Assembly: GCA_009928985.1 (NCBI GenBank)
Contig: SABL01000003.1
Location: 1 to 57,466, forward strand
Source: Clostridia bacterium
Lineage (GTDB): Bacteria; Bacillota; Clostridia; Saccharofermentanales; UBA5734
DNA length: 57,466 nt
Direction: 5' to 3'
Shown here: one piece after another, positions 21,406 to 32,014 of the stretch
Position numbering within the stretch: position 1 is the first letter of the stretch
Layout of the letters: each line of letters begins with the position of its first letter
The notes under the pieces: generated by a model
Database searches by the model: none
Told to the model about the DNA's origin: nothing
The model's input: only the letters and a program-made list of their open reading frames with translations
Program-made: the position numbers and the translations under genes

Positions 21406-21434
21406 TTGTCAAAATAGTGCCATTGGCGTATAAT
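21406..21434 (+). promoter_or_regulatory. Sigma-A promoter for leader A / secreted-protein cluster
   Basis: TTGTCA (21406-21411), 17-bp spacer, TATAAT (21429-21434). Confidence 0.75.
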
Positions 21435-21440
21435 AACGAT

Positions 21441-21540
21441 GGACTTTGGATGCTATGATGATCTGGCCTTATTGTGGACGCTTTGGCCAGATATGAGCAA
21501 CTAGCGTAACCGGCTGAAAAGCCGGTTATATTTTTTTTGA
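21441..21540 (+). ncRNA. Structured 5' leader RNA A (candidate riboswitch-like element)
   Basis: GCTA/TAGC closing helix, perfect hairpin ATCTGGCC(21461-21468)-16-nt loop TTATTGTGGACGCTTT-GGCCAGAT(21485-21492), then terminator TAACCGGC-tgaaaa-GCCGGTTA-TATTTTTTTT. Shares its core with leader B at 31.9 kb. Confidence 0.65.
21507..21538 (+). terminator. Intrinsic terminator within leader A, upstream of the CDS
   Basis: TAACCGGCtgaaaaGCCGGTTATATTTTTTTT. Confidence 0.85.
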
Positions 21541-21570: not shown

Positions 21571-22155
21571 ATGAAAGTCAGACGAAGCGTATTGGTCCTT
21601 TTGGTGATCCTTGCCGTTGCCTTGACGTATCAAGTCCAGGCTTTTCTGTCTGCTGAAATCAAGAACAAAACTACGCTCGATGTGACCAATCCGGAGCAGG
21701 CAATTGTTGCTTTCCCGGATGATCTGGTACTTTTTGTCGAACAAACCGTTCAAGTGACCTCAGATGAAAGTGCGCTCACAGAGGAATCTCTTGTGGAAGT
21801 GACTGACGCATCCCACAACGTCGAAATCACAAACCACTCCAGTCGCCTGATGACTGTGCGCATCGAGTGTGACATGGAACAATTGATTATTGATGATCTG
21901 GTTGTCAGCCCGGGTCTGACGGAACGCGCCAGCATCCAGGTCGCCGAAGATCTTGAAAGTGGATTAGCGACCTTGATAATCCATGCCAGCTGGGAAGGTG
22001 GCACGGCGGATATCCGCACGCCGCTGTCGGTGAAAGTCCATCAGATTGAAACATTTGAATCAAAAGGATCAGCTGAACCATCAGATTTAGTGGAAGTGAC
22101 CGAGCAAGGCCTTGAACTTGCAAGTCCAGAAACACTCTCAACCATCGGAGAATAA
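21571..22155 (+). CDS. Secreted protein, TasA/CalY/DUF1102-like (tentative)
   Basis: Signal peptide MKVRRSVLVLLVILAVALTYQVQA followed by FLSAEIKNKTTLDVTNPEQAIVAF. Beta-rich acidic 194-aa protein. Confidence 0.55.
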   Translation: MKVRRSVLVLLVILAVALTYQVQAFLSAEIKNKTTLDVTNPEQAIVAFPDDLVLFVEQTVQVTSDESALTEESLVEVTDASHNVEITNHSSRLMTVRIECDMEQLIIDDLVVSPGLTERASIQVAEDLESGLATLIIHASWEGGTADIRTPLSVKVHQIETFESKGSAEPSDLVEVTEQGLELASPETLSTIGE

Positions 22156-22206
22156 CGTCAGTCAACCTTGCTTGTTGACAGCAGGCCAATCGAAAGTGGA
22201 CGCATT

Positions 22207-23277
22207 ATGGCCAAGATTGTGGTTCCCTTTTTCCACGAAAAAATCTGGATTCCGATTGCCCTTGCAATCCTGAGCCTTGGATTCGCCACCGGAGCCGTCC
22301 GGGCATTCCAACAATCTTCTGTAACTGAACAGACACACGTCACAAACACAATTGTGGAAGATATCCTGCTAGATTATGCAGCTCAGATGCGATCGAGCAC
22401 CTTGTATCCCGATGGTGGAGACTTAGTGGCCAAAGACCTGATCTTGACAGGTCTGCTCGAACAGTTCAACACTCTGTCTGAAGTTAAGATCACGGCGCAA
22501 GAACCTTTGGAGATGGAGCTGCGCAGTGAACTGTCTTATCAGATCCAGACTAAAGACCTGTGGCAGAGCCAGCCGGCCATCATGAGTGTCAAGGTGAGCC
22601 GTTCGGAACCGACAACCCAGGTGACATTGCCTCATGCTGCCCATCTGGATTTCGGTCCAATATACGAATTTATCCATAAGGTTGATGAGGAAACTCAGAT
22701 CCGGGCCAACACCGTGCTCGTCCTCAACCTCCATGTAACAGGCAACTTGTCAGATCTTGAAGGACAGATGGTACATCAGGTGGATCAAGCCATGAGCTTG
22801 CCTTTTGAACTGGCTGCCCCCTATGTTCGATATGTTGGAACACCGGAAAGCAAGGTCAAGTCAACCACCACAACTTTGACAGTAACGTCGGCAACCCAGC
22901 CCGGGTTTCACTTGTTTGGCATCATGGTCCCGCTGCTCCTGGCCAGAATCGCTTTTAGCCTGCTGGCATTGATTGCGATGGGTCTGGCTCTTTTGCTGGT
23001 GTGGCGTCACAGATTGCAGAGGAAAGAGCAGAGGGGCCACTCTTTAGCGTCTGTCCGAAAAGTGGAGAACAAGAACAAAAGCAAAATCCTTACTGTTCCG
23101 ATGCCCTTCAGTCTGGAGCGGGAATGGGCTGTGCCTCTGAACCGTTTGCAGGACTTGGTGACCCTGGCAGAGGACAAGGAAGAAAAAGTCTTCAAATACA
23201 TCGATGCTACAGGCACGACGTACTATTTGATCACACCCACTGTGACGTTTTATTGTGTTGTGCCAAGTTTGCATTGA
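22207..23277 (+). CDS. Membrane-anchored protein, DUF5305-like
   Basis: N-terminal TM, beta-rich external region with VNTIVEDILLDYAAQM..YPDGG, C-terminal TM (LLLARIAFSLLALIAMGLALLLVWRHR) and cytoplasmic tail. Architecture matches DUF5305 proteins that co-occur with S26 signal peptidases. Confidence 0.6.
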   Translation: MAKIVVPFFHEKIWIPIALAILSLGFATGAVRAFQQSSVTEQTHVTNTIVEDILLDYAAQMRSSTLYPDGGDLVAKDLILTGLLEQFNTLSEVKITAQEPLEMELRSELSYQIQTKDLWQSQPAIMSVKVSRSEPTTQVTLPHAAHLDFGPIYEFIHKVDEETQIRANTVLVLNLHVTGNLSDLEGQMVHQVDQAMSLPFELAAPYVRYVGTPESKVKSTTTTLTVTSATQPGFHLFGIMVPLLLARIAFSLLALIAMGLALLLVWRHRLQRKEQRGHSLASVRKVENKNKSKILTVPMPFSLEREWAVPLNRLQDLVTLAEDKEEKVFKYIDATGTTYYLITPTVTFYCVVPSLH

Positions 23278-23318: not shown

Positions 23319-24977
23319 ATGATTCGGATTTTGACAGGTCATGGACCGTTACTGGGTCGTTTAAGGCAAGTGCTGGTCATAGACCGAACCAATCTGGTGC
23401 GTGTCTACCGAACCTGTGCGCTGGTGCTGATTGCCATTGCGTATCTGGCGCGATTCCCCGTCGAACCCCTGGCTTACAAAATGGCTGTTGTCATTTGTCT
23501 GGCGCTGGCTGTCCTCCTGCTGCAGAAGTTGTTTGACCTCTCGAACCAGAAGCCGCGCACACTCCGCTTTTTGGTCCTGGTTGAAATCATTGGCATCGAT
23601 CTCATTCTGCTGTCAACCGGCGGTTTGACCAGCCCGTTCATCTGGTACGCCACCTGTCCGGCCTTGATTGCTTCCGCTTATCTCTCACCTGGATTTGCCT
23701 GGCTGGCGCTGACTTTTTTTCTGGGAACAGGAGTCGGCATCAATTATTTCCTGTTCAATCCCAGCCAGATTACTCTTGGCGACCTGATCCTGAGAAATGC
23801 CCAGCTGATCCTGGTGTTCATTTTGATCAATCTCATGGTTGTGCTTCTTTCTGGTTTGCTGCGAAAGCTGCAGACACTGGAAAAATACCAGGAAGAGGCA
23901 ATGGATACGGTCCTTTCGCTTTACCAGTTCATGGAAGCGTTGAATGCGCATAGCACCCGCGAAGAGCTGTTCTCGGTATTGCCGGCGTACACCGTCAGAC
24001 TGACCCACTGTGAACCATGCATTTTCTGGATCCGGGACAAAGGACAGGTCTATGCATCAAAACAGCTGAGCAAACAGGAACGGTCAGACTTCAAGTCGAT
24101 TTTCCGGCAGCCGCTTCCTGAAAATAAGATGGAGCTGGCCTTGGTCAATGTGAACGGCCAGCTTTACTGGCAGGTACCGATTCAATCTCATGCTGAATAT
24201 TTTGGCCGGATCCTGGCATGCCCCTGGGGTGTCAGCAGCATCGAAAAGGAACAGGCGCAAAAGCTCATTCATTTTATTGCGGACCTGTGCGCGGTGACTT
24301 TGGAACGCTTCAATCTCGAGGCGGTCGCGGACACCTTGCTGGTGCTTGATGAACAAAACCGGATTGCCGGCGAAATCCATGACAGTGTTGCCCAGCGACT
24401 CTTTTGCATCAGTTACGGCTTGCATGGTTTGCTTGGCAAAAAAGAGGACCTGAACAATCCCGAAAGCTTGGCATGTCTGTCAGAGCTCCGGGATACAGCC
24501 CAGGCAGCCATGCGAGAACTGCGACAATCGATTTACCGCTGGAGTACCGCCAAAAACGGACAGGATTATTTCAGGACCGCAATTGAACAATTCCTGGGCG
24601 GACTGCATCGCTTGCATGGTGTCCAGACAAAGTTGAATATATCCAATGATTGCCTGGAAATTCCTGCCCGATATGAAAATGGATTCATCCGCCTGATCCG
24701 TGAAGCCTGCAGCAATGCGATCCGGCATGGTCAATGCCAAAACATCCGGATCGAGCTATGGAACGAGCTCGGCTGGATTCACCTTGCCATTACCGACGAT
24801 GGCAGTGGGTTTGAGGCAGGCACCTTTGCAGCCAGCAGGGGTCTCGGGCTTGCGAATATGAAAAACCTGGCACATGCGTTCAGGGGGACGATATCGATCA
24901 CAAGTGCCATCGGGTCTGGAACAGTCATTGACGTGGTGGTGCCGCTTGTTGACCAAAAAGGAGGAGTCCCGTGCTAA
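23319..24977 (+). CDS. Membrane sensor histidine kinase, NarL/HisKA_3 type
   Basis: N-terminal TMs; H-box RIAGEIHDSVAQRLFCISYGLHGLL; N-box IRLIREACSNAIRHGQ; DDGSGFE and GLGLANMKNLA. Confidence 0.9.
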   Translation: MIRILTGHGPLLGRLRQVLVIDRTNLVRVYRTCALVLIAIAYLARFPVEPLAYKMAVVICLALAVLLLQKLFDLSNQKPRTLRFLVLVEIIGIDLILLSTGGLTSPFIWYATCPALIASAYLSPGFAWLALTFFLGTGVGINYFLFNPSQITLGDLILRNAQLILVFILINLMVVLLSGLLRKLQTLEKYQEEAMDTVLSLYQFMEALNAHSTREELFSVLPAYTVRLTHCEPCIFWIRDKGQVYASKQLSKQERSDFKSIFRQPLPENKMELALVNVNGQLYWQVPIQSHAEYFGRILACPWGVSSIEKEQAQKLIHFIADLCAVTLERFNLEAVADTLLVLDEQNRIAGEIHDSVAQRLFCISYGLHGLLGKKEDLNNPESLACLSELRDTAQAAMRELRQSIYRWSTAKNGQDYFRTAIEQFLGGLHRLHGVQTKLNISNDCLEIPARYENGFIRLIREACSNAIRHGQCQNIRIELWNELGWIHLAITDDGSGFEAGTFAASRGLGLANMKNLAHAFRGTISITSAIGSGTVIDVVVPLVDQKGGVPC

Positions 24978-25621
24978 GTGTGCTGTTGGTGGATGATCAT
25001 CCTCTGGTGCGCCAGGGCTTGAAGGCAGTCCTGTCCCTCGAGCCAGATCTGGCTATTGTGGGTGAGGCGGGCAGCATTGAAGGCGCCTGGTCTCTGATCC
25101 AGGCTCAAAGGCCAGACTTGATTCTTCTGGATATCCGCCTCGACCAGGAGAACGGGCTGACCATCCTGGATCGTTGCCAGAACGAACATCTGGCAAGCAA
25201 GTTTCTTGTCCTGACGTCTTCAACAACTGCCAGTGATTTTGAATCTGCCCGAGCCTCAGGGGCGTCAGGCTATGTGCTCAAGGATGCCCTGCCGGAAGAG
25301 CTGGTCTTTGCCATCCGCCTGATCGGACAAGGTCGCAAATATTACGATCCGAAAATTCTGGACCAATGGCTGGAGACACAACGTCATCCGGATCTTGAAG
25401 TTGACTCTCTCAGTGAGCGAGAATGGGATGTGCTTTCAGCGCTGGGCGAGGGGTTGTCGAACAGGGAAATCGCCGAAAAATTATACATCAGCATTTTCAC
25501 CGTCAAGAAACACGTCAGTCAAATCTTGGCCAAATTGAGCCTTGCTGACCGGACACAGGCAGCCCTGTATGCCTTGTCCCGGCAAATGGACAATCAAATG
25601 GATGTGACCAGCAAACACTGA
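24971..25621 (+). CDS. LuxR/NarL-family response regulator
   Basis: LLVDDHPLVRQGL, LILLDIRL, HTH LSEREWDVLSALGEGLSNREIAEKLYISIFTVKKHVSQILAKL. Confidence 0.93.
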   Translation: MLSVLLVDDHPLVRQGLKAVLSLEPDLAIVGEAGSIEGAWSLIQAQRPDLILLDIRLDQENGLTILDRCQNEHLASKFLVLTSSTTASDFESARASGASGYVLKDALPEELVFAIRLIGQGRKYYDPKILDQWLETQRHPDLEVDSLSEREWDVLSALGEGLSNREIAEKLYISIFTVKKHVSQILAKLSLADRTQAALYALSRQMDNQMDVTSKH

Positions 25622-25655
25622 AAAAGCCGCTGGTCTGGAAAGATCAGCGGCTTTT
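25621..25655 (+). terminator. Rho-independent terminator after the response regulator
   Basis: AAAAAGCCGCTGgtctggaaagatCAGCGGCTTTT. Confidence 0.85.
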
Positions 25656-25758
25656 GAGGTCAGGGTCTGGATTTGCCCCTTCGCGGAGGCTTACCCGGAG
25701 ACTTGCCCCAAGGATGACCTCGGCCAAGTCTGGAGGATGTCCCCGGGGCCTTGAGCAT

Positions 25759-26337
25759 CTAGGCAATCGCTTCAGCTTTGATGACGACTTCCATGTTGGA
25801 CAAGCCGTTGACAGCAGTATCCCCAACTGTGATCCGCACGCCAATGTCACACGTGCTGCCACTCGTCAATGTCCGCGGCAGGACCACAAACGAACCGGTC
25901 GCATTCTGCCAGCCATTGCCACCGTCACCCATGGACTGGTTCGTTTCGATCGTCACACCGGCAGGTACGCCTGTGACCTTGATTGAAAGCCGGATGTGCT
26001 CGGCAGAACGGTTCTGGATCGCGAACATGCCCGTGTTGGAGGCGCCGCCATTGAACCATTCATAAACGCTGTTGCGTTGCAGGCCATAATTCTGGTCGCC
26101 GCCAAACCAGGGATTGTTGCCGCGGCCGAATTCAAACACCAGGTCGCCACCGTCGAGATAGGCCGTCTGATCGAGATTACCAATGCCTCCCAGCGGGACC
26201 AGGGCCAACAAGGCTGTATTGGTATTCGTGATCTTCAGCTCCGCTGCATTTGTCACCGTAGCTGTGTTGTACGCCATGGAAGCCATCAGGCTGGACACGC
26301 AGAGCAACACAATGACAAGAATCAATTTGCGTTTCAT
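25759..26337 (-). CDS. Secreted DUF1102/TasA-like protein
   Basis: MKRKLILVIVLLCVSSLMASMA|YNTATVTNAAELKITNTNTALLALVPLGG...; ELKITNTNTALLAL block followed by a beta-rich domain. Confidence 0.65.
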   Translation of the reverse strand: MKRKLILVIVLLCVSSLMASMAYNTATVTNAAELKITNTNTALLALVPLGGIGNLDQTAYLDGGDLVFEFGRGNNPWFGGDQNYGLQRNSVYEWFNGGASNTGMFAIQNRSAEHIRLSIKVTGVPAGVTIETNQSMGDGGNGWQNATGSFVVLPRTLTSGSTCDIGVRITVGDTAVNGLSNMEVVIKAEAIA

Positions 26338-26538
26338 GAAACATCCCTCCTAACTGTGAATGTGTTTCCAAATCTAATTATCTGATTTTGGCTCCGGACA
26401 GACAGCGGGCGCAAGGATAGACTTTGCCAGGTCGAGCGAGCCATCAATAAATCGCCCCAGGATGCAGTGCGATAGAACGAAAGAAGGGGCTGCAGTAGAC
26501 TTCGGATCACCCAGACATCCCGCTTGAGGAGTAACTCC

Positions 26539-27639
26539 ATGCGACGCTTAGATCGAGTGATTGATGCTTTCCTGATGATTCTGGCTGCCTTGATCCTGGC
26601 TGCGGCCATTGCCTCGTCTGTCGGGAACAAGCCTTTTCTGTTCACTGCCGTCCGTTCCAACAGCATGTATCCTGTTCTCGAACGCGGAGATCTGGTTCTG
26701 ATCCAGAATCTGGCTCCTGACGAGCCGGTCTTGATGGGTGATCTGGTTATCTTCCGGGCAAAATCCGGAGAACTCGCTTCGCAAGGCTACATTGTGCATC
26801 GGATAACAGGCGGAGATTCGGAAAGTGGCTTTGAGACCAAGGGTGATGGCAACACCTATTCTGACCAGGAAGCAGGCAATCCAAAGATCGACCGTGCTTG
26901 GGTCAGCAGCCGAGTGCTTGTCTGGCAAGGGAAACCAGCCCATGTTCCATTGCTTGGTTTTTTTCCTGTCTGGCTGGAAAGGCTTGAACTCAATCGCATG
27001 ATCCTGCCGGTGATCGCCTTTGCCTTGGCTTTGATCGTGGTTACAGGGGAATTTCGCAAGCCAAGGCGGAAGGCCAGAAAGAAGAAGGCCGCCCTGGCCC
27101 GGCCGCTGGTCTTTGTAACAAGCGGCCTGACCTTGTCGATACTCATGGCCGCGACCATGATGGCGGCATCTGAACGTGTGACCTATCTTTATGAAGTCAC
27201 AGCTGATCAACGCGGCGCGATGCTCGGCAGCAGCGCCGGGATTCTCCTGGTTGGCGATGAACTCGATCAACCACTGGCAGACCTGGAAAACAATGGGTTT
27301 CTGCCTGTTTTGGTGACGATTGTCTCAGATGATGATCAATTGTCCTTCAGCCATCCTCTGCAGGTTCTGGGACGTGGTAGCCACATCAACACAAAGGTCC
27401 ATCTGCTCGCTCAAGCACCAGGCATCTATCATTCCAAGATCCAGATTGGCCTGTTTTACCAGCTCCTTCCCAGTATCCTGATCTATCAGCTGGCCAGGAT
27501 CAGCTACTGGCTGGCACTGTCGGTGGTCGCACTGATACCGGGCCTGCCATTGCTGCTCTTTCCCTGGCTGGACAGAACGATGCGGCACACGGTGGTACGT
27601 GTCCTGCGCAAGAAAACTCGCCAGGTTCTTCGGCTTTGA
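26539..27639 (+). CDS. Signal peptidase I, ER/archaeal S26B (SipW-like) type, with a long C-terminal extension
   Basis: AVRSNSMYPVLERGDLVLIQN (catalytic Ser box), GYIVHRI (His in place of Lys), FETKGDGN. About 200 further residues with additional TMs. A TTG at 26524 is an alternative start. Confidence 0.88.
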   Translation: MRRLDRVIDAFLMILAALILAAAIASSVGNKPFLFTAVRSNSMYPVLERGDLVLIQNLAPDEPVLMGDLVIFRAKSGELASQGYIVHRITGGDSESGFETKGDGNTYSDQEAGNPKIDRAWVSSRVLVWQGKPAHVPLLGFFPVWLERLELNRMILPVIAFALALIVVTGEFRKPRRKARKKKAALARPLVFVTSGLTLSILMAATMMAASERVTYLYEVTADQRGAMLGSSAGILLVGDELDQPLADLENNGFLPVLVTIVSDDDQLSFSHPLQVLGRGSHINTKVHLLAQAPGIYHSKIQIGLFYQLLPSILIYQLARISYWLALSVVALIPGLPLLLFPWLDRTMRHTVVRVLRKKTRQVLRL

Positions 27640-31900: not shown

Positions 31901-32014
31901 GCTATGATGGAAGTAACAGAATAAGCTTTGGCGGCGTTGAAGTGCATCCTGTATCTGGACGCTTGGGGTGCATGGAGCCAATAGCGAAACCGGTCAATTC
32001 GGCCGGTTTTTTTG
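31901..32014 (+). ncRNA. Structured 5' leader RNA B (same core as leader A)
   Basis: GGTGCTATGATGG..., hairpin TGCATCC(31943-31949)-16-nt loop TGTATCTGGACGCTTG-GGGTGCA(31966-31972), TGGAGCCAATAGCGAAACCGG, terminator. 5' end not determined. Confidence 0.65.
31987..32013 (+). terminator. Intrinsic terminator within leader B
   Basis: AAACCGG-tcaattcgg-CCGGTTTTTTT. Confidence 0.85.

Follow-up and report, generated by a model that had tools for sequence, protein, structure and literature searches.

The structured leader at 21439-21524 of the analysed window, a 57,466-nucleotide stretch that is one complete contig from a clostridial MAG, is most probably (roughly 0.9) a canonical c-di-GMP-II (class II) riboswitch acting as an ON switch of transcription. 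It belongs to this family by sequence, structure and covariation; from this class membership, c-di-GMP would be its ligand, and the ON direction is predicted from the overlap between the aptamer and the terminator that follows it. The leader adds one more member to a known class, and its expression platform and targets are the usual ones. The MAG is 96.9% complete and 7.7% contaminated; that the contig itself is a contaminant is unlikely, given that one of its proteins, of 812 aa, is 91-92% identical to those of three congeners.

Family membership and structure of the leader

A cmscan search of the whole window yields four matches, namely, two tRNAs, a c-di-GMP-II riboswitch (RF01786) at 31921-32002, and a match of the leader to the related model c-di-GMP-II-GAG (RF03169; 40.7 bits against a cut-off of 40). 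When RF01786 is applied to the 351 bp around the leader with an E-value threshold, it aligns over its full length (model positions 1-84) with 46.9 bits and an E-value of 2.2e-9, a score that is below the curated cut-off of 53.5. The leader is one of nine RF01786 matches in the genome, six of which exceed the cut-off. A sequence-only reading of this DNA had proposed an undescribed regulatory RNA, naming c-di-GMP-II among the classes whose consensus it did not match, and had suggested a search of Rfam, where a strong hit would make the RNA a known one. That search returned members of the c-di-GMP-II clan for both this leader and the second one, so that neither the novelty nor the exclusion of c-di-GMP-II holds. 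An undescribed class accordingly has virtually no probability: nothing speaks for it beyond the failure to recognise the family, and it is contradicted by the Rfam matches, by covariation and by the genome-wide evidence for the family.

The individual elements are listed in Table 1. The aptamer match begins near the expected start site of the predicted promoter, slightly upstream of the position 21441 given previously, and its last bases are common to the terminator, the T tract of which is followed by the ATG of the first gene after about 30 nt. The promoter, the 8-bp hairpin with its 16-nt loop (P3 of the family), the GCTA and TAGC words (21452-21455 and 21502-21505) and the terminator all lie at or beside the positions where they had been placed by eye, and the view of the leader as a cis-regulatory RNA composed of a promoter, a structured domain and a premature terminator is borne out. 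The promoter and terminator scans carry little weight by themselves because they are close to chance level and not significant alone (one TTGTCA-17-TATAAT-like promoter in 501 bp compared to 0.4 expected in shuffled sequences; one terminator-like match in the leader stretch compared to 0.6), but the leader as a whole is far beyond chance, as indicated by the E-value of the RF01786 match.

Table 1. Features of the riboswitch leader, the downstream operon and the second leader in the window
Feature	Position	Strand	Basis or remark
Sigma-70-type promoter TTGTCA-17-TATAAT	21406..21434	+	Predicted; consensus match 11/12
c-di-GMP-II riboswitch aptamer	21439..21524	+	Rfam bounds, alignment, covariation
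P1, 5' strand TTTGG	21445..21449	+	Pairs with CTGAA 21514-21518
P2, 5' strand TGC	21451..21453	+	Pairs with GCA 21497-21499
P3 hairpin	21461..21492	+	Perfect 8 bp; strands ATCTGGCC 21461-21468 and GGCCAGAT 21485-21492; 16-nt loop 21469-21484
Pseudoknot, 5' strand ACGC	21478..21481	+	Pairs with GCGT 21504-21507
Pseudoknot, 3' strand GCGT	21504..21507	+	Alignment, covariation
Ligand-pocket strand AACCGGC	21508..21514	+	Conserved; common to aptamer core and 5' arm of terminator
Intrinsic terminator	21506..21540	+	Stem GTAACCGGCT-GAAA-AGCCGGTTAT 21506-21529, then T tract to ~21539
First controlled gene, 194-aa protein	21571..22155	+	N-terminal signal-like segment
DUF5305 protein (PF17231)	22168..23277	+	ORF bounds as listed; start 22168 or 22207
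Sensor histidine kinase (HisKA_3, HATPase_c)	23319..24977	+	Domain matches
NarL/LuxR-type response regulator	24971..25621	+	Domain matches
Hairpin AAAAAGCCGCTG...CAGCGGCTTTT	25622-25656		Directly after response regulator gene
Second c-di-GMP-II riboswitch	31921..32002	+	RF01786, 58 bits

To assess the structure, 55 aptamers were aligned; nine came from the same genome, and the rest from its genus and family or from a sample of the class. With the Rfam structure and the pseudoknot taken together, 79.4% of the cells pair in this alignment, compared to 57.0% in shuffles and 34-41% when the strands are slid. Among the 54 distinct sequences used for the helix statistics, P2 is paired in 92.6% of the cells, with changes on both sides, and P3 in 93.7%, with all pairs changed on both sides. 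The loop pseudoknot is paired in 98.1% of the cells and shows 47 double-change cells compared to 16.9 in shuffles; it alternates in the family between GCAC/GUGC and ACGC/GCGU in a compensatory manner. The homologues were gathered with Rfam models that reward nested helices, and because the pseudoknot is not part of the pairing in those models, the covariation there is the cleaner evidence.

The same alignment separates two pairings that had been suggested from the letters as possible competitors. Pairing of CGCT in the loop with the downstream AGCG is the family pseudoknot. The GCTA/TAGC helix is not conserved, one of its four pairs failing in 38 of the 54 sequences, and was rejected both as a closing helix and as a switch partner (75.3% of the cells paired compared to 73.6% in shuffles); the apparent retention of its outer pairs is explained by P2, the pseudoknot and conserved segments, whose columns they share.

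The leader shares with RF01786 the helices P2 and P3, the loop pseudoknot, the near-invariant GGA...GA, UGGRC, GAG and AACCGGC segments, the overlap of the terminator with the pocket strand, and surface and signalling targets. It differs in its score and in a weak P1, which consists of five consecutive base pairs, two of them G-U. These are the two features that could point to a decayed, non-functional aptamer of which only the promoter and terminator are left, but such decay is very unlikely, considering that the near-invariant positions are all intact, as are P2, P3 and the pseudoknot, and that a short P1 is not unusual because only the two or three innermost pairs of P1 are strong across the family. 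Another difference is the ACGC/GCGU pseudoknot in place of the consensus GCAC/GUGC, a compensatory change that is common to the relatives of the leader and to many other lineages. It is hardly probable that members with this pseudoknot, or this leader with its weak P1, have shifted their ligand preference to another cyclic dinucleotide or respond at an unusual threshold; nothing in the analysis points to a shift of either kind.

The GAG subclass label

Taken at face value, the call at the gathering threshold (RF03169) would make the leader a c-di-GMP-II-GAG variant with an altered pocket and, possibly, a different ligand. The overall fold is alike, and the score is marginally over the cut-off. 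The GAG variant is named for a change at the first A of AACCG, a residue that contacts the ligand in the class II pocket (pocket residues are named here after the Rfam consensus lines). In the cmscan alignment, the consensus of the RF03169 model reads GCGAGACCG, with G at this position, whereas the leader reads GCGUAACCG, so that the diagnostic G, and with it the GAG segment of the variant, is absent; the A is retained in 54 of the 55 aligned members, the leader included. Moreover, this stretch receives a higher score from RF01786, and other RF03169 calls (in L020, L021 and L036) also carry the canonical AACCG, which suggests that the low cut-off of the model admits canonical members. The GAG variant was rejected for the leader on the diagnostic residue and is, on all this evidence, quite improbable.

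The label of the leader is, judging from these residues, probably a misassignment: the leader is called RF03169 because its RF01786 score is under the cut-off of that model and the cut-off of RF03169 is lower, not because of the diagnostic residues. Members of this lineage that fall below the RF01786 cut-off receive the GAG label by default, and an RF03169 label near the cut-off looks unreliable. A clostridial aptamer on the minus strand of another contig (L177:1501-1585; GUGCGACCGG), unlike the leader, does carry a G where AACCG has its first A and is a real pocket variant.

Overlap of the aptamer and the terminator

The pocket strand forms the beginning of the terminator stem (GUAACCGGCU/AGCCGGUUAU; -15.7 kcal/mol). 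This arrangement recurs in homologous leaders, of which 168 distinct ones, drawn from many phyla, were scanned. A terminator-like hairpin lies within 80 nt in 148 of them, and its 5' arm starts within AACCG in 109, compared to none of 93 control slots located 300-900 bp downstream, where eight terminators were detected, none of them in the AACCG slot. In the remaining 59 leaders, the strict scan shows no overlap, with no hit in 20 and the best hit elsewhere in 39.

Because the 5' arm of the terminator is the conserved pocket strand, the bound aptamer and the terminator would be mutually exclusive, and an ON switch is predicted. Under the proposed mechanism, transcription would start just upstream of the aptamer; with c-di-GMP bound, P1, P2, P3 and the ACGC/GCGU pseudoknot would keep AACCGGC in the ligand pocket, the terminator would be blocked, and the operon would be transcribed when c-di-GMP is high. 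Without the ligand, the AACCGGCU/AGCCGGUU hairpin would form and transcription would stop ahead of the first gene. The opposite wiring, in which the ligand frees or promotes the terminator and the switch is OFF, has to be considered given that the ON direction is itself deduced from the overlap; it is, nevertheless, very improbable, both because a 5' arm lying within the conserved pocket strand means that the bound aptamer excludes the terminator and because the class II switches of Clostridioides difficile are transcriptional ON switches (PMC11477304).

Elsewhere in the family, a Parcubacteria leader (L040:5523-5690) has a terminator that, by eye, holds CCTCATTAG, the complement of the aptamer 5' strand CTAATGAGG; given this complementarity, that switch may be OFF, that is, wired opposite to the clostridial ones.

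The operon and the probable c-di-GMP regulon

The ON switch predicted here would control four genes (Table 1). The 194-aa protein encoded by the first gene has no match in Pfam or NCBIfam and no relatives in viral contigs. The hairpin directly after the response regulator gene looks like the terminator of the operon. The operon was not found in four congeneric genomes, where the DUF5305 protein and the kinase have no close relative. The operon would probably serve surface or matrix functions and signalling. In C. difficile, class II switches control the CmrRST two-component system, adhesins and type IV pili (PMC11477304); the cmrRST riboswitch and the leader described here both belong to class II and both lie ahead of an operon that encodes a histidine kinase and a response regulator, but the regulator of the present operon is NarL-like and its first two genes encode a secreted protein and a DUF5305 protein, and the likeness is one of gene content. 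Two further genes adjoin the operon, one for a small secreted protein (25759-26337, minus strand) and one for a signal peptidase I of the archaeal/SipW-like type (26524-27639, plus strand; TIGR02228 above cut-off). Together with the DUF5305 protein, these suggest a SipW-type matrix-fibre cluster.

The second leader of the window, presumably the one that the sequence-only reading had paired with the first, likewise has a terminator that overlaps the aptamer, and it precedes a gene for a secreted GDSL lipase (ORF to 33119). Genome-wide, the nine c-di-GMP-II matches are accompanied by one c-di-GMP-I match and by 28 matches to GGDEF, the diguanylate cyclase domain, of which 27 exceed the cut-off. 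The nine aptamers are mostly located ahead of secreted or surface proteins: apart from the operon above, the genes that follow class II leaders encode a 1975-aa SdrD_B repeat protein, a DUF7507/DUF11 protein, the secreted GDSL lipase, and threonine-rich surface proteins that end in MPxTGD and a membrane segment. The class II targets in this genome are the usual c-di-GMP adhesion and matrix regulon. Two genomes from the family to which the window genome belongs carry both aptamer classes on one strand, c-di-GMP-I about 0.6 kb upstream of c-di-GMP-II (L010:509-593 and 1180-1263; L011:647-731 and 1281-1365).

The collection of homologues also includes c-di-GMP-II riboswitches in eight small genomes of candidate phyla, on contigs titled Komeilibacteria, Parcubacteria, Patescibacteria and Saccharibacteria (L038, L040, L042, L087, L108, L033, L076 and L104). 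These aptamers score 55-76 bits with RF01786 and have AACCG intact, and some form tandem doublets. In four cases (L038, L040, L042 and L087), a small receiver-like protein is encoded just downstream; the four are similar in sequence, with a weak Response_reg match in three. In the assembled sequences as they stand, six of the eight genomes show no GGDEF match and all eight show no PilZ match. A literature search on candidate-phyla c-di-GMP-II riboswitches found no report. If real, these switches would imply that candidate-phyla cells sense c-di-GMP without visibly making it, or that they sense something else.

For the leader itself, the analysis corrects both the claim of an undescribed class and a subclass label that is likely misleading. 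It also assigns an operon for a secreted protein and a two-component system to the c-di-GMP regulon of a clostridial genus that is uncultured and has at least nine class II switches.
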